DNA of 45,235 nt, from contig DASYUQ010000216.1 in NCBI GenBank assembly GCA_036001065.1, positions 1-45,235 on the forward strand. Reading direction: 5' to 3'. This DNA is from Candidatus Methylomirabilota bacterium (GTDB lineage Bacteria; Methylomirabilota; Methylomirabilia; Rokubacteriales; CSP1-6). A model generated the notes under the pieces. That model was not told where the DNA came from. It searched no databases and saw only the letters and a program-made list of their open reading frames with translations. This document shows, piece by piece, positions 22,569 through 33,276 of this stretch (its first letter is position 1; every line of letters begins with the position of its first letter). A program made the position numbers and the translations under genes.

Positions 22569-22601
22569 CCACGAGCGCCGAGGGTGACTCGGCGCCCGTG
22601 G
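22569..22601. terminator. Two-way terminator between convergent genes
   Basis: CCACGAGCGCCGAG and CTCGGCGCCCGTGG form a 14-bp stem with one mismatch and a GGTGA loop, preceded on the plus strand by AAAA. It separates the hydrolase from the GYD gene on the other strand. Confidence 0.75.
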
Positions 22602-22628
22602 CACGGCGTTCCGGCCCTGGGTGTCGGC

Positions 22629-22949
22629 CTAGTGCCCCGGCGGGCGATAGTTGATCATCTTTTTCGTCGCCTGGTCCATTTCCTCGGGCGTCATCAGCAC
22701 GGTCAGCGTGACCTGGACCGCCCCGCTGGCACTGACAGCCAACGAGACGGCCGCGGCGCTGGCGTTGTCCGGCACGTCAGCGACGGCGAACACGTCGGTC
22801 TCGCCGAAGGCGAAGTAGAACGATTCCAGCCTTCCACCCACCCCCTTCAGGGCGGCTTCCGCCGCCGAACGCCGTTGAGAGCCTCCGTCTTTCATGAGCC
22901 CCCTGACGCCCTCCGCGGTGTACGACGCTTGGATCAGATACTTTGGCAT
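22629..22949 (-). CDS. GYD-domain protein
   Basis: 106 residues from the ATG at 22949, which has GGGAGGTG upstream. It begins MPKYLIQASYTAEGVRGLMK and contains FYFAFGETDVFAVADVPDN, the pattern of the GYD family (PF08734): small ferredoxin-like-fold proteins of unknown function. No neighbour indicates its role. The 228 bases upstream (22950-23177) hold nothing I can identify. Confidence 0.8.
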   Translation of the reverse strand: MPKYLIQASYTAEGVRGLMKDGGSQRRSAAEAALKGVGGRLESFYFAFGETDVFAVADVPDNASAAAVSLAVSASGAVQVTLTVLMTPEEMDQATKKMINYRPPGH

Positions 22950-23177
22950 ACAGCACCTCCCAACGAAGAGCACTGGCGCACTGTTCCCGAGACTCGATCC
23001 GCAGGCACGGCTACCTCCCCAGGGCCGGACGGTCGATGCGTGGCGCGACTCTGCGCTGATGCACGAGGGCTGTCAAGCGGCGTCGACGGCCATCCGCGCG
23101 ACGGCCTACCGACGATCCCTCGACGGGGCGACGCACCGCGCCTCGCGCGTCTGGCCGGCGTCAACGAGCCAACCGCG

Positions 23178-24194
23178 CTACCAGGCGGGCGCCTGGCCGT
23201 CAGGTCCCAAGAGCTTCGCGCCCTCCTCGTGGAACACGAGATCTTCGGGGCGCGCGAGCAGGGCGCCGTTGGCGCCAACGAATTCGCCGAGGTTGCGTGG
23301 CGTCGCTGCCGTCGCCCCTTGTTCGATGAATTCGTCGATCAAGTAGCAGGTGTCGCGCTTCTTCACGAGGTAGGACTTGAAGCTGCCCGTGAGCATCTTG
23401 GCCTTCCGGTTGACGGCCCACGCGCAGAGCCGGCGGAAGAGCTTCGGCATGAGCACGGCTCCCGAGTCGTCCGCCCCGTCCTCCGGCACGCTCTTCCGGT
23501 AACGAAGGTCGAAGTCCAACTTTCCGACGACCTCCGCGAGCTCCGGCCAGATCCCCCGGCCCTTTGTTCGGGCCTCGTCGGCGAGCTCCAGGAGCGTCCT
23601 GATCTCCTCCGCCGACATGGAGTTATAGAACGCCGGAACGGTCCAGCCCGCCGCGGTCAGCCACTGGTTGATGTTCTGGTCCTGGCCTTCGAGGCCGACC
23701 AGGATGTCGCCGACCAGGCGCCCGTAGGTGTCGATGGCGTCGTCGGGCTGTTCGACGGCGGTCCAGACGACGCAGGGCAGATGCGATACCCCTTCCTTCT
23801 CGAGGAGGCTCTTCAGGGCGGCCGTCGCCGACTCTGCGAAGTGCTGGCGGTACTTATGGTTCCACTCGAGATACAGTCGGTGTTGCTCCGCCGTCTGTTC
23901 CGCCTTGCGCTTTGCCGCCGGCGGCGTGTAGTGAAGTTCCGGCGCGTCGACCCCCTGCAGTCGGATGGTGATCCGGCCCTTGGGGTCGATGATCTCCTTG
24001 CTGACCCGACCTCTCACGCGGGCCTTGTCGAAGGCATGGGTCACGCGAAACTCGGCGCCGGGATGCTCTCGGAATCTGAACGCTTCGTCACCGACTTCGA
24101 TCTTCACCTTGGTGGTGTCGGCGTCCGACTCACCCTCGGGCCAGAACTGCTCGAGCGGGATCTGTCCCTGGACCTCTAGGAACCCCTGAGTCAT
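23178..24194 (-). CDS. Staphylococcal-nuclease-like (thermonuclease family) protein
   Basis: 338 residues; classic SNase is near 150. The SNase-like core spans about residues 60-225: ITIRLQGVDAPELHY carries the Asp and Glu of the active site, DTYGRLVGDILV the Arg of the second motif, and NINQWLTAAGWTVPAFYNSM follows. Residues 230-338 are a C-terminal extension unfamiliar to me. No signal peptide is seen, so it may act inside the cell. It is the last gene of a four-gene operon; its ATG overlaps the stop of the 95-residue gene by ATGA. Confidence 0.72.
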   Translation of the reverse strand: MTQGFLEVQGQIPLEQFWPEGESDADTTKVKIEVGDEAFRFREHPGAEFRVTHAFDKARVRGRVSKEIIDPKGRITIRLQGVDAPELHYTPPAAKRKAEQTAEQHRLYLEWNHKYRQHFAESATAALKSLLEKEGVSHLPCVVWTAVEQPDDAIDTYGRLVGDILVGLEGQDQNINQWLTAAGWTVPAFYNSMSAEEIRTLLELADEARTKGRGIWPELAEVVGKLDFDLRYRKSVPEDGADDSGAVLMPKLFRRLCAWAVNRKAKMLTGSFKSYLVKKRDTCYLIDEFIEQGATAATPRNLGEFVGANGALLARPEDLVFHEEGAKLLGPDGQAPAW

Positions 24195-24478
24195 TGCAGT
24201 ACCCTCCCCTCGGCAAGGGACGTAGCAGACTGCGCAGCCTCACCGCGCGGTCGCAGGACGATGGCCCATCCAAGCCTGTCCAGGGATGAACTCACGTCGT
24301 GCTGGCGTCGGTCACGCGTAAACACGGGTTGTCCATCGGGCGAGCGCCGTCTGGCCACGCGGCGGTCGAGGACGACCCCGACACGTTCGTTTTCCGCGAA
24401 GACCTGGGTGAGATGGACGCACACCAGGGGTTCTTCCCGCGACACGATGATGAGCAGCTGGCTCCCCGGGGTGCTCAT
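24191..24478 (-). CDS. Small Arg-rich conserved-looking hypothetical protein
   Basis: 95 residues. The N-terminus resembles a beta-strand start (SQLLIIVSREEPLVCVHLTQVF), followed by VGVVLDRRVARRRS and TRDRRQHDVSSSLDRLGWAIV. The DRR...RRR...DRRQ arrangement is one I associate with small unknown proteins of GC-rich environmental bacteria; no function is known to me. It starts three bases after the preceding gene and overlaps the nuclease by ATGA. Confidence 0.65.
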   Translation of the reverse strand: MSTPGSQLLIIVSREEPLVCVHLTQVFAENERVGVVLDRRVARRRSPDGQPVFTRDRRQHDVSSSLDRLGWAIVLRPRGEAAQSATSLAEGRVLQ

Positions 24479-24481
24479 CGC

Positions 24482-24667
24482 TCAGGGGGCGCCGACCACC
24501 AGTCGGGCGCAGTCGGCCGTCGTCATCCCCGCACAGATGATTTCCACGTCCGCACTCGTCGCGGCGAGTACGGAAAGCGTGTGTACGACCGACCAGCCGA
24601 ACACCGCCAGCCCGACGAGGGTTGCCGCCAGCACCGCACAATCCTCTTTTGCCATCGCCGTCCTCAC
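24482..24667 (-). CDS. Small single-span membrane protein
   Basis: 61 residues from a GTG that overlaps the preceding stop by GTGA; an ATG at 24655 is the alternative. One hydrophobic span (AVLAATLVGLAVFGWSVVHT) is followed by a short outer segment with two Cys (IICAGMTTADCARL) that could form a disulfide. Unknown family; a candidate membrane partner for the nuclease operon. Confidence 0.55.
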   Translation of the reverse strand: MRTAMAKEDCAVLAATLVGLAVFGWSVVHTLSVLAATSADVEIICAGMTTADCARLVVGAP

Positions 24668-24828
24668 GCGACCTCCGCTTTCGGGCGGCCGGCCATCGCC
24701 TGTTCAGCTTCCTGTCGGCCATCGTCCCTGGCCGCGACCGGCAGCATCTCCCCGGGCCGCACCACGGACACGCTGTCCTTAGACTCGAACAGTTCTCGAA
24801 GACGTAGCTCGTAGAGGACATCGAACAT
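24664..24828 (-). CDS. Short acidic/basic protein, first gene of the sigma-54 nuclease operon
   Basis: 54 residues, beginning MFDVLYELRLRELFESKD and ending GRPKAEVA. GGAGGAGGTG gives it the best ribosome site in the operon. It is probably helical and matches nothing I know. The reading is supported by the sigma-54 promoter 45 bases upstream and the GTGA overlap with the next gene. Confidence 0.55.
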   Translation of the reverse strand: MFDVLYELRLRELFESKDSVSVVRPGEMLPVAARDDGRQEAEQAMAGRPKAEVA

Positions 24829-24872
24829 TGCCAGCACCTCCTCCGCCTCGCCCGCGTCGACCGTCTACCAAC

Positions 24873-24888
24873 GGCAGGGAGCGTGCCA
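24873..24888 (-). promoter_or_regulatory. Sigma-54 (-24/-12) promoter of the nuclease operon
   Basis: On the minus strand TGGCACGCTCCCTGCC has GG and GC exactly 10 bases apart and matches TGGCACG-N4-TTGC except for one T to C. The predicted start near 24862 gives a 34-base leader before the ATG at 24828. Confidence 0.75.
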
Positions 24889-24936
24889 TGTATGGAAAGC
24901 TCGTCGGTTCACGGGGTTACGGGGGCCGCCCATACC

Positions 24937-24953
24937 GCATTCGGGCAGAATGC
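24937..24953. promoter_or_regulatory. Candidate enhancer (upstream activator) dyad
   Basis: GCATTC-GGGCA-GAATGC is a perfect 6-5-6 dyad centred about 83 bases upstream of the predicted sigma-54 transcription start, the usual distance and geometry for an NtrC-type activator site. The activator at 25557 is the obvious candidate. Confidence 0.55.
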
Positions 24954-25059
24954 CCTACGTGGATTGAGGCGTCGTGCCCGGCTTCGCCCGCGTCACACCG
25001 CTGGTGACCCAACGCGGGCCTCGAAAAGGAGCTGATTCGCGAGCCCGGGGCCGTTATAG

Positions 25060-25137
25060 CGAAGCGCTCCGGCCCTCCGGAGTGCCGGACGTACTGGCGC
25101 TCGAACCGCTCGCAGGCTTCCCGCAGCGGCAGCCCGG
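25060..25137 (-). pseudogene. Truncated duplicate of the 3' end of the NtrC-type regulator
   Basis: Bases 25060-25088 match the regulator's last codons (25562-25590), and 25087-25137 match 25700-25750, including GCTTCCCGCAGCGGCAGCCC, with only a few differences. About 110 bases between the two blocks are missing. It is a remnant of a tandem duplication, no longer coding. Confidence 0.7.
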
Positions 25138-25177
25138 ATGGCGCTCGCGTAGAGGGGGTGGGAGAGCGCAGTGACCT

Positions 25178-25405
25178 CTACTCGCTCCCCTCGACCTTCA
25201 CCAGTTTGTTGTAGAGGCCCATGATGAGGAGGGTGGGTACCCACTGACCGATGAAGTTCGCCACGTTGCGGCGTCCCATGACCATCATCATCAGTGACAA
25301 CGCCATCGAACCGAGCGCCAAGGTCAAGTAGACCCCGGACGGGATCTCTGAGGTGTAGGACTCGCGATTCCTGTGCCGATTCCCTCGCGTGGGACTCTGC
25401 AGGTA
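25178..25405 (-). CDS. Small two-span membrane protein, start codon unclear
   Basis: The open frame encodes ESYTSEIPSGVYLTLALGSM, ALSLMMMVMGRRNVANFIGQ, then WVPTLLIMGLYNKLVKVEGSE: two hydrophobic spans around a short basic loop. The C-terminal part resembles small membrane proteins I have seen in related genomes. No ATG or GTG with a ribosome site precedes the first span (a TTG at 25327 and an ATG at 25306 exist), so the 5' end may be damaged. It lies between the regulator and its truncated duplicate, in disturbed DNA. Nothing identifiable in 25406-25556. Confidence 0.5.
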   Translation of the reverse strand, partial: YLQSPTRGNRHRNRESYTSEIPSGVYLTLALGSMALSLMMMVMGRRNVANFIGQWVPTLLIMGLYNKLVKVEGSE

Positions 25406-25556
25406 TTACAGCGACGAGCCCTTGACGCCTCCACGCCTTTCCGCGTCCAGCGCCCCGGTGATCCTGCGAGCGCACGAGAAAGTGAAACGTGGCCCGTCGT
25501 CGATCCTGACTTCAAGGGGAGCGGCGCTCAACCTGACCTGAGACGCCGGGTGGCCG

Positions 25557-26995
<1,439 letters not shown>

Positions 26996-26999
<4 letters not shown>

Positions 27000-28448: not shown

Positions 28449-29819
28449 CTAGTTGGCCAGGGGCTTCAGGCTGAGCTCGAGGACGCGGCGGGAGCCGGAC
28501 GTCAGCGGGGCCCGAGCGCCGCGGCGCAGCCCGGCGACCCATACGATCTCGCCCTTCGCCTCGACGATGGGCAGGCGCTCGCGCTCCCAGCGGGGAATCT
28601 TCGCGTCGATCAGGAATGTCTTGAGGCGCCGCGCCCCGGCGCCGAACGGCCGGAATCGATCGCCCGGCTGCCGAGCCCGGACCACCCAAGCACCCGGCAA
28701 CTCGTCGGCGTCGAACGCGACACGGTCGGGCTCGCGGGGCACGGCATAGCCGTCGGCGGGCAGCAGGCGCGTCTCCAGCCGCAGGCCGACCTCGGGCAGC
28801 GCCACGCTGCCGGGGATCGGCACCGGCCGTGCGATCAGAGCCGGCGCAACCCCGCGGGCCAGCCGCACGAGCCGGCCGCTCACCTCGACGGTGAGGCCGC
28901 CGAGCCTGAACGGTCGCCGCGGCGGGGGCGTGGCCAGGAGCCGCTCGAGGCCCCGATGGGCCCACGCCCGGAGGGGGGCGCGGCTGCCCAGGCGCGCCGC
29001 CGCCAGGCGGAGCACCTCGGCCGCCAGCGGCCGCGGCAGCGCCGAGAGCGCGTCCCCCGGCAGGATCAGCCCCTCGCCTTCCGTTCGCGCCATGCGATCC
29101 AGCTCGACGCTGGCGACCCGCTCGAGGGCCTCGAGCGCCGTGCGCGCGTGGCCGGCGACGCGATTGAGCGCGACGACGACGTCGGCCGCGTACGACGCGG
29201 CCAGGAGCGGCAGCAACTCGTGCCGGACACGGTTCCTGAAAAACTTGGGATCCCGGTTGCTGGGGTCCTCGATCCAGGCGAGCCCCACGCGCTCGAGCCG
29301 AACCATCAGATCGCGACGCCGGACGTCCAGCAGCGGCCGGATGATCCGCCCCCGGACCGCGGGGATCCCGGCCAGCCCCCGCACACCGGCGCCCTCCAGC
29401 AGCCGCATGAGGACGGTCTCCGCTTGATCGTCGGCGGTGTGGCCCAGCGCGATGCGGTGGGCCCCGATGCGGTCGGCCTCGGCCTCCAGCGCGATATAGC
29501 GCGCCTGCCGGGCGGCCTCCTCGAGGGAGGCCCGCGCGGCCACCTCGACCGTGGCGACCTCCACGGGAACGCTCAGGCGTCGTCCCAGCGCCCGCACGAA
29601 GTCGGCGTCACCGGCCGAGCCGGCGCGGAGCTGGTGATCGACGTGGAGCACGTGAAGTCGGAGGCGCCACTCGGCGGCCAGCCCGCCGAGCACGTGGAGC
29701 AGCGCCGTCGAGTCCGCGCCGCCCGAGACGGCGACCAGGACAGTTTCGCCGCCCGCGAGCATCGCGTGGCGGCGAATGGTGTCGCGCACGACGTCGAGGA
29801 CGTCGGCCTGCACCGTCAC
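28449..29819 (-). CDS. tilS: tRNA(Ile)-lysidine synthetase
   Basis: 456 residues from the GTG at 29819, whose G is the last base of the preceding TAG stop. The PP-loop ATPase motif SGGADS is at residues 32-37; HVDHQLR, LGHTADDQAETVLMRLLEG and the C-terminal RQPGDRFRPFG and KTFLIDAKIP segments are all TilS landmarks. It converts C34 of tRNA-Ile(CAU) to lysidine so that it reads AUA; essential in most bacteria. Confidence 0.92.
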   Translation of the reverse strand: MTVQADVLDVVRDTIRRHAMLAGGETVLVAVSGGADSTALLHVLGGLAAEWRLRLHVLHVDHQLRAGSAGDADFVRALGRRLSVPVEVATVEVAARASLEEAARQARYIALEAEADRIGAHRIALGHTADDQAETVLMRLLEGAGVRGLAGIPAVRGRIIRPLLDVRRRDLMVRLERVGLAWIEDPSNRDPKFFRNRVRHELLPLLAASYAADVVVALNRVAGHARTALEALERVASVELDRMARTEGEGLILPGDALSALPRPLAAEVLRLAAARLGSRAPLRAWAHRGLERLLATPPPRRPFRLGGLTVEVSGRLVRLARGVAPALIARPVPIPGSVALPEVGLRLETRLLPADGYAVPREPDRVAFDADELPGAWVVRARQPGDRFRPFGAGARRLKTFLIDAKIPRWERERLPIVEAKGEIVWVAGLRRGARAPLTSGSRRVLELSLKPLAN

Positions 29820-30565
29820 TAGCCTCCCTGCGGGCCCACCCAGACCTCTCCGTCCTCGAAGTGCTCCTTCTTCCACACCGGCACCGAGCGCTTCAGGGTG
29901 TCGATGGCGTACCGGCACGCCTCGAACGCCTCCTGCCGGTGCGCGGCCGAGACGGCGATGAGCACGCTCGGCTCGCCGATCTCCAGCCGCCCGATGCGGT
30001 GCAGCATCGCCACGCGCTTGACGCCGGGCCAGCGCGCGTGGAGGCCCTCGCCGATCTCGCGCATCTTGGCCTCCGCCATCGGCGCGTGCGCCTCGTACTC
30101 GAGGAACTTGACGGGCCGTCCACCGGTCTCGTTGCGCACGACGCCGGAGAAGATCACGATTCCGCCGGCGCCGGGATCGTCCACCGCGGCCGCGATCGCC
30201 TCCGGCGACAGGGGCGCGTCTACGACGCGGTAGGTGTCACCGTGTTTGAGCGCGGGCTTGGCCCGCGCCATCTCTGGGGGAGGCTCGGAGGGGGCCGTAA
30301 CGTCCGCCCCCTCCGATGAGCTCCCCCCGCTCACGGGTGGAAACAGGCTCAGCTCGTCGTCCGGCCGGAGGGGGTGCTCGGGCGCGACGTAGTCGTGGCC
30401 CACGGCGAAGAGCGTGTACGGCCGGTAGCGCCCCAACTCGGGGTGGCGGTCGACGACCGCCGACCACGCGGTCTCGACGGTACCGCCCTCGGGGAGCTCG
30501 AGCTCGAGCCGCTCGCGCCCGGCGGCTTCACGGTACCGGGCGAAGAGGCGGACCCGAATGCGCAC
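29819..30565 (-). CDS. moaX: MoaD-MoaE fusion (MoaX-like molybdopterin synthase)
   Basis: 248 residues. Residues 1-81 are a ubiquitin-fold MoaD (MRIRVRLFARYREAAGRE to SLFPPVSGG) and about 105-245 a MoaE (GGIVIFSGVVRNETGGRPV, LEYEAHAPMAEAKM, HRIGRLEIGEPSVLIAVSA, WKKEHFEDGEVWV). Together they put sulfur into precursor Z to form molybdopterin. The Gly80-Gly81 of MoaD must end a free C-terminus to carry thiocarboxylate, so cleavage before SSSEG is expected, as reported for mycobacterial MoaX. Confidence 0.88.
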   Translation of the reverse strand: MRIRVRLFARYREAAGRERLELELPEGGTVETAWSAVVDRHPELGRYRPYTLFAVGHDYVAPEHPLRPDDELSLFPPVSGGSSSEGADVTAPSEPPPEMARAKPALKHGDTYRVVDAPLSPEAIAAAVDDPGAGGIVIFSGVVRNETGGRPVKFLEYEAHAPMAEAKMREIGEGLHARWPGVKRVAMLHRIGRLEIGEPSVLIAVSAAHRQEAFEACRYAIDTLKRSVPVWKKEHFEDGEVWVGPQGG

Positions 30566-30973: not shown

Positions 30974-31693
30974 TCACAGGATGCCACCCGCCGGCAGCAG
31001 GGTCAGCGCCTCCAGCGCGGCGCCGGGCGGGAGCGTGACCATCAGCAGCGCCGCGCGCGCCACGTCGTCGGGGGTCAGCATGCGGCTCCGCTCGGGCGCG
31101 TTGGGAATCGTGTCCCACAGCGGCGTGGCCACGGCACCCGGCAGCAGCACGCCCACGCGCACCCCTTCGCCCCGGAGCTCCTCGGCCAGGACGCGGCTGA
31201 AGCCCACCACGCCGGCCTTGGTGGCGGAGTAGGCCGCCGCGCCCGGCATGGCCCGCGAGGCGGCCACCGAGGCGATATTCACGATCGTCCCCCGGCGCTG
31301 GCGCACCATCGGGGCCAGCGCCGCGCGGCAGCACACCATCACCGCGCGCAGATTCACGGCGAGCATCGGGTCCCAATCCGTCGGCTTGGCGCCCACCACC
31401 GGCCCGAACGAGGCGACGCCGGCGGCCGTGACCAGGATGTCGAGCCGTCCCAGCTCGCCCAGCGTCTGCTCGACGAGCGCCTCCACGGCAGCGTCCTGCG
31501 TCACGTCGGTTGGCAGGGCCAGCGCGCGGCCGCCGGCCTCCCGGATCTCGGCGGCCACCGCCGCCAGCTCGGCCCGCGTTCGCGCCGCCAGCGCCACCGC
31601 GGCCCCCTCGCGGGCCAACGCGCCCGCCACCGCCCGGCCGATGCCCCGGCCGGCGCCGGTGACGATCGCCACCTGCCCGCTCAGCGCGCTCAA
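30974..31693 (-). CDS. Short-chain dehydrogenase/reductase
   Basis: 239 residues from a TTG whose TTGA overlaps the folE stop. Cofactor motif [11 protein letters not shown]-like [10 protein letters not shown], catalytic Ser in [13 protein letters not shown], and YSATK (Tyr and Lys). Sequence alone would say FabG-like reductase of unknown substrate. Its position directly after folE and two PTPS genes makes a sepiapterin-reductase-like or other pterin side-chain reductase role plausible (inference). Confidence 0.82.
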
Positions 31694-33276
31694 ATCTGAA
31701 GCCCGCCGCGGGCCTTGATCAGCTCCATGAATTCGGCCCGGGTCTCCGGCCGGTCGCGGAACGCCCCCAGCATGGCTGAGGTCACGGCCTTGGAGTTCTG
31801 CTTCTCCACGCCTCGCATGACCATGCAGAGATGGACGGCCTCCATCACCACCGCGACCCCCCGGGGCTGGAGCACCTCGTTGAGGGTGGTGGCGATCTGC
31901 GTGGTGAGCCGCTCCTGCACCTGGAGCCGGCGGCCGTACATCTCCACCAGCCGGGGGATCTTGGACAGACCCACGATCTTCTTCCGCGGCATGTAGGCCA
32001 CATGGCACTTGCCGAAGAATGGGAGGAGGTGGTGCTCACAGTTGTGCGTGAGGTGACCGCCGACCAGGAAGGTGGGATACGGCTCACACTTGAAACTGTA
32101 GACGGTATGGGGCTTCTTCGCCCGCGCCAGACGCCGCACGTCGAGGACCGTTGTGTAGGTGCTATCGATGGGAACATAAAACTTGCTCTGTTGACGGAAC
32201 CCGTGCTTGCCGTACCAGCCGGCCTGAGCCCACCGGTCAGAAACATAGATTTTCCCGCAATCGGCAGTCCCGGTCCTCGCGACCGGCGTCTGGAGGTACC
32301 GGCCAAGAGCGCCCAAAAAATCCAGGTTTGCGCTGATGATGAACCGCCCCTGCTTTATGGCGTACCCGTCGCCGTCGCAGTAGCCGTCCAAGAACCCCTG
32401 CATCATCTCCCTGGACGACGTCACGACCCTGGGGAACTCGAACCGCGTCGTCTTGCTCCGCGACCCGTTCTCAGGCACTCCGAGCCACCGGCACAGCTTC
32501 TCGCCCATCGCGCGAGACACGGTACGCACACGACACATCGGAAGTTGCGTCTTGAGGAATCCGGACGGGACCTTTACTCGCTCAATGGCAGGCTTCAGCC
32601 CCGGAAGCGCCTCGGCCACCATTGCCGCGTACTTCTCGGCAAACTGCTCACTCTTCACGACGAGAGCGATCCGGCGCCCGTCCTGGATGCTACCATCCGC
32701 GGCGGTGGCGCCCAGGACGTATCCTGCGGCGTATCCGGGCTTCGGTTGAATGGGTCGTCGGCAGAGGGATCTCGGGTTGATCCATTCCACACGCGCCCCA
32801 GGCTTAAGATCCTGAGCCTCCCGCCAACCCGACTCCGTCATGACCGGGTGGTCGGGGGTGAGGCGGATCGCCCCGTGCTGGGTCCTGACCTCCACGATGT
32901 CCCGGGTCTTGTGCGAAGACACGTTCGCGACGATAGTCAGCTTCAAGAAGCCCTGGTGCAGCGTCCAGAGGCGGTCACCTGGGCGCACTCGGCGCGCCTG
33001 CTTCGCCCCGTCGACCGCATTCACAACCTGCTTGCTCGGCACGCACAAACTGAAGACGTCGATGTCCTTCACGACGACCATCTCGTCGTACTCCTCGACG
33101 AAGAGCGCGTCGTTGAGGATGTCCTCGACCTTCATGCGGTAGCCGCCCGTCAGATACCGCAGCGCCTTCTCCACGCGGTCGGGCGTGCGCTCCAGCCCCT
33201 CCCGGAAGGCGTCCTCCCCCAGCTCTTTCAGCAGCTGCTCGACCAGTCGCGCGATCGCACCTGGGGACTCGCTCAT
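31690..33276 (-). CDS. folE: GTP cyclohydrolase I interrupted by an intein
   Basis: 528 residues: N-extein 1-77 (to [11 protein letters not shown]), intein 78-412, C-extein 413-528 ([20 protein letters not shown] to the end). The spliced enzyme would be 193 residues, a normal FolE, with zinc ligands in CEHH and in HLCMVMRG intact. It converts GTP to 7,8-dihydroneopterin triphosphate, first step of folate and tetrahydropterin synthesis. The intein sits immediately before the zinc Cys, so unspliced protein should be inactive. ATGA overlap with the PTPS gene upstream and TTGA with the SDR downstream. Confidence 0.93.
32041..33045 (-). other. Intein with LAGLIDADG homing endonuclease, inserted in folE
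   Basis: 335 residues. Cys1 begins block A ([10 protein letters not shown]); block B has TPDH (63-66) within [16 protein letters not shown]; two LAGLIDADG-type motifs follow ([12 protein letters not shown] at 109-120, [14 protein letters not shown] at 217-230), each with its acidic residue; block F is [16 protein letters not shown] (315-330); it ends THN before Cys+1 of the extein. All splicing residues (C1, TxxH, H334-N335, C+1) are present. The DNA looks less GC-rich than the flanking folE, consistent with recent arrival. Confidence 0.92.

Follow-up and report, generated by a model that had tools for sequence, protein, structure and literature searches.

The DNA analysed here, referred to throughout as the window, is a stretch of 45,235 nucleotides from a soil bacterium of the Candidatus Rokuibacteriota, and the subject of this report is a series of four minus-strand genes within it, spanning positions 24828-23178. 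In order, these are an open reading frame for a 54-aa protein (24664-24828), one for a 61-aa protein with a single membrane span predicted from hydropathy (24482-24667), one for a 95-aa protein whose homologues place it in a family marked by DRR, RR and GWALVRR motifs (24191-24478), and one for a 338-aa protein containing a staphylococcal nuclease (SNase) domain (23178-24194). The first two genes overlap by GTGA, the second and third are separated by 3 nt and the last two overlap by ATGA. Shine–Dalgarno-like sequences (GGAGG or GGGGAGGG) precede the 54-, 61- and 338-aa genes, and none that is clear was found ahead of the 95-aa gene. A codon-usage model trained on clear genes within the window ranks the gene's own frame top of six for all four ORFs, with a weak signal for the 95-aa ORF (0.055, next frame 0.043). 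Coordinates, junctions, the three ribosome-binding sites and codon usage therefore agree, and the overlapping four-gene series described in an earlier reading of this DNA, made from the sequence only, is real.

Other features of the window lie further from these genes. A GTP cyclohydrolase I (FolE) gene at 31690-33276 is split by an intein (Pfam Intein_splicing, LAGLIDADG) whose insertion point directly precedes CEHHLLPF, at the active-site Cys, and a single ORF at 29819-30565 carries ThiS-like (MoaD-type) and MoaE domains and apparently encodes a fused molybdopterin synthase.

The 338-aa protein matches the Pfam SNase entry (PF00565) with an E-value of 1.6e-12 and 48.3 bits, against a gathering cut-off of 21. 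The assignment of the fold rests on this profile match because a single-sequence AlphaFold model failed (pLDDT 36), and a PDB sequence search with the protein gave no match. Staphylococcal nuclease is a small secreted enzyme in which Asp21 and Asp40 are calcium ligands. The roles of its residues Arg35, Glu43 and Arg87 have also been described (PMC8436206). In an alignment of the 338-aa protein with proteins from Methylobacterium, Nonomuraea, Embleya and Paracoccus, residues D24, D26, R78, D83, E86 and R159 are invariant across all five, so that the equivalents of Asp19/Asp21, Arg35, Asp40, Glu43 and Arg87 are all retained; this was a check set beforehand, and every catalytic residue aligned. 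A C-terminal PKLFRRL block is common to the 338-aa protein and three of the four aligned relatives, and hydropathy analysis revealed no hydrophobic N-terminal signal segment. Given the conserved catalytic residues and the missing signal peptide, the protein is probably an active, intracellular (cytoplasmic) Ca-dependent nuclease of the SNase type. Its relatives are only 24-29% identical. Of the 95 genomes of the phylum, 1 carries the gene, which was absent from all 56 other genomes of the family. Searches of GTDB contigs (with a single-protein query), phages and IMG/VR found no close relative of the protein, although IMG/VR did contain a relative of the Methylobacterium homologue, at 32% identity.

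A lineage-specific insert and its limits

The four genes lie within an insert specific to this lineage, which extends over approximately 2.9 kb (about 22602..25550) from the gene of an NtrC/AtoC-type response regulator to that of an alpha/beta-hydrolase. Homology with a locus of the same genus (L032) ends at window position 22601 and restarts at 25559, and in another relative (L036) the two flanking genes are 57 bp apart. Both flanking genes are conserved in all 17 relatives inspected, where the interval between them ranges from 57 bp to 4.3 kb and its content is never that of the window, including FecR-domain and TPR beta-barrel genes recognised by Pfam, together with pilin-like and peptidase-like genes recognised by eye. 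The GC content of the insert is below that of its flanks.

Besides the cassette, the insert holds gene fragments and one further gene. At 25042..25137 on the minus strand, about 0.5 kb downstream of the regulator gene itself, alignment revealed a degenerate copy of that gene's 3' end with an internal deletion; it matches the intact sequence at 94% identity across 54 nt and 85% across 40 nt. Next to it, at 25178..25327 on the same strand, is the remnant of a membrane protein gene without its 5' end (..FVGQWVPTLLIIGLYNKLVKLEGSE), related to loci L103 and L104; its intact form, of about 85-86 aa, occurs at other places in two genomes (G005 and G051). Downstream of the SNase gene lies a minus-strand gene for a GYD-domain protein (22629..22973; PF08734, 2.7e-28), for which the ATG at 22949, with GGGAGG ahead of it, is the likelier start. 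The analysis turned up no donor for the cassette.

The sequence-only reading had envisaged a conserved module, with the same four genes together in other genomes, and had itself named missing linkage of the small genes as evidence against its proposal. No conserved linkage of the cassette genes was found: the SNase gene is limited to the one genome in 95, the family of the 95-aa protein is widespread without it, and the single relative of the 61-aa protein stands alone. We infer that the insertion site is prone to recombination and that the operon is cargo within it. An accessory-gene cassette would thus have been inserted, in this lineage only, between the core regulator and alpha/beta-hydrolase genes, its main product being a cytoplasmic SNase-type nuclease. 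With some reservation, we favour the reading that the operon is acquired cargo at a hypervariable spot, encoding an intracellular Ca-dependent nuclease that is perhaps driven by sigma-54; the rarity of the SNase gene, the limits of the insert, the gene fragments and the lower GC content all support the cargo view.

The small proteins and a multicopy family

Three of the four products had been described as unknown, which fits two of them better than the third. The 54-aa protein has no homologue among the family libraries and loci searched. For the 61-aa protein, whose hydrophobic segment has a hydropathy of 2.19 over 19 residues, the only relative found is a weak one in genome G008, a small membrane protein of similar size and with a similar hydrophobic segment, encoded on its own. 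The 95-aa protein belongs to a large family of this lineage, present in 61/95 genomes of the phylum by single-sequence search, and in 67/95, including 59/60 of the order, by profile search; about 16 copies were counted in this genome and as many as about 39 in relatives. The family consensus is LLFIVSR.EP..Y.YL...FA....VEV.LDRR.GERR......ERR..DRR.RD....L...GWA.VRR. It has no match in Pfam, NCBIfam or the PDB (by sequence), and all ten of its confirmed GTDB matches are from Candidatus Rokuibacteriota. The copies most similar to the cassette protein (63-67% identity) are found elsewhere in the same genome (G000:C173) and in G052:C49, and in both cases the other cassette genes are absent. An AlphaFold model of the 95-aa protein, built with 24 relatives, shows a beta-alpha-beta, alpha-beta core with a pLDDT of about 90 in the first half, and a Foldseek search with it gave no significant PDB match.

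Copies of the family (loci L079, L080, L082, L083, L085, L088, L090, L091 and L093-L098) are often clustered, with five within 8 kb of L080, and some of the ORFs carry extra segments that appear by eye to be receiver-like (L090), ATPase-like (L093) or coiled-coil-like (L080). Because of the receiver-like and ATPase-like segments, the family may represent a signalling module characteristic of this major uncultured soil lineage, in which case this unnamed family could matter more than the operon itself.

These data also bear on the idea that the small ORFs are not genes and that only the SNase gene is real, which we regard as very unlikely. It would account for the near absence of homologues of the 54- and 61-aa ORFs and for the weak codon signal of the 95-aa ORF, but not for the many homologues of the latter, at up to 67% identity, nor for the relative of the 61-aa protein, the own-frame codon bias and the ribosome sites. 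On the cargo reading, the three small genes would be co-translated riders of the nuclease gene, one a member of a multicopy family, one encoding a single-span membrane peptide and one a unique protein. A more elaborate arrangement can be imagined, in which the membrane peptide and the 95-aa protein hold or inhibit the intracellular nuclease until a two-component sigma-54 signal releases it; were this true it would constitute a new kind of regulated module for the degradation of self or foreign nucleic acid, and we consider it a long shot.

A sigma-54-like site, upstream dyads and the neighbouring regulator

About 45 nt ahead of the first ATG, at 24888-24873 on the minus strand, stands a sigma-54-like -24/-12 site, TGGCACGCTCCCTGCC, from which transcription would start at about 24863. 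It reads TGGCACG-CTCC-CTGCC, an exact match to the GG-N10-GC pattern that is also of the TGGCACG-N4-TTGCW-like form. The sigma-54 consensus is given as TGGCACG-N4-TTGC(T/A), and a site of the form TGGCACG-N4-CTGCT has also been listed (PMC9765219). By pattern counts, on which the genome-wide promoter statistics are based, the 4.46-Mb genome contains 14 copies of TGGCACG-N4-YTGC and 22 of its reversed control, so that the pattern is not enriched and a match alone means little; some 9-10 of the 14 copies fall within genes as called automatically, and the density corresponds to about 2e-4 per 150-bp upstream region. The promoter proposed from the sequence is nevertheless plausible because its position and orientation fit, and we regard this correctly placed, intergenic match as notable but not decisive. 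A fortuitous match, with the cassette read from another promoter, transcribed by read-through out of the regulator operon, or little expressed, is a real possibility, though we think it on balance not the case. It accords with the genomic count, with a search of the interval from regulator to cassette that found no terminator-like site, and with the gene fragments in the upstream 0.5 kb, but it leaves to chance an exact site on the right strand and at the right distance, and a search for a sigma-70-like site serving the cassette found none. Transcription probably starts from the 24888-24873 site, and an enhancer-binding protein would then be needed.

Two dyads lie upstream of the site. The perfect GCATTC-N5-GAATGC dyad at 24937-24953, earlier taken as the enhancer, is not repeated exactly anywhere else in the genome. 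Perfect 6-bp dyads separated by 3-10 nt, however, turn up 1.27 times per 200 bp across the window (0.22 for N5), a chance level at which it provides no evidence of an enhancer. A second dyad, GTCAC-N7-GTGAC, which had been missed, lies at 24992-25008, 104-120 bp upstream of the TGG. It recurs in nine places in the genome, mostly within genes, against two for the control, and of these copies the one in the window alone is followed by a near-consensus sigma-54 site. It is also found upstream of a sigma-54/FecR promoter in one relative (L039), that is, in one of seven relatives' promoters, and apart from this no binding motif common to the cassette promoter and the relatives' FecR promoters was found. 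We treat it as a weak candidate for an activator site.

The regulator gene itself (25557..26999, minus strand) encodes REC, sigma-54 activation and Fis-type HTH domains and is a core gene, with strong homologues in 57/57 genomes of the family (1/57 for the SNase gene) and 93% identity within the genus. It occurs at the same locus in 17/17 relatives inspected, none of which has the SNase gene. Since its partner genes differ among genomes, the regulator is not dedicated to the nuclease, as the phrase "dedicated activator next door" had implied. In five relatives (L035, L037, L038, L039 and L040) the gene at the same spot encodes a FecR-domain protein and has a sigma-54-like site close to its start, which makes it reasonable that the regulator serves sigma-54 promoters at this spot and makes it the candidate activator of the cassette; the FecR genes are possibly its conserved sigma-54 target set. 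These secreted FecR-domain genes have sites of the form TGGCAY-N5-TTGC, and some have adjoining TPR beta-barrel genes. A AAATCTCG-like element recurs 20-35 bp upstream of some of the sites; it was considered as the regulator's site and rejected, being strong in only three of seven FecR promoters and not clear in the window.

The fullest functional proposal is that of a sigma-54-controlled nuclease module, in which the regulator binds one or both dyads and drives a response to stress or foreign DNA together with the small partners. The correctly placed -24/-12 site, the overlapping genes, the adjacent regulator and the GTCAC dyad shared with one relative all speak for it, but the regulator is found without the cassette in all relatives, the linkage is not conserved and the GCATTC dyad is no more than chance would give. 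None of the four products matched a PADLOC defence family, and nothing positive emerged for the earlier suggestion of a stress or self/foreign DNA-processing module. We consider this proposal unlikely. On the cargo reading that we prefer, the operon chiefly illustrates how accessory cargo can come to lie beside an enhancer-binding regulator and possibly gain sigma-54 control.

Comparison with known systems

Among described enzymes, staphylococcal (micrococcal) nuclease shares the active-site equivalents given above, and the 338-aa protein differs from it in its length, its insertions, its additional C-terminal region and the lack of a signal peptide. The thermonuclease family protein of Methylobacterium oryzae plasmid pMOC1 (WP_172685370.1, PF00565) has the SNase domain, the same catalytic residues and the PKLFRRL block and, like the 338-aa protein, no apparent signal peptide. 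Thermonuclease family proteins of this kind are, however, only 24-29% identical to the 338-aa protein and have other neighbours, with no operon of small genes.

Within other Rokuibacteriota the nearest parallel is provided by the FecR genes, which occupy the same spot as the cassette and likewise have a sigma-54-like site near the gene start, but differ from it in their unrelated products, in their transcription toward the regulator and in the TTGC of their -12 element. Sigma-54 control of nucleic-acid enzymes is already known from the rtcBA RNA-repair operon, with its adjacent activator RtcR (PMC7790460). RtcR, however, is a CARF-domain protein whose gene is divergent from the operon, whereas the neighbour of the cassette is a core REC-type regulator that lies upstream on the same strand.
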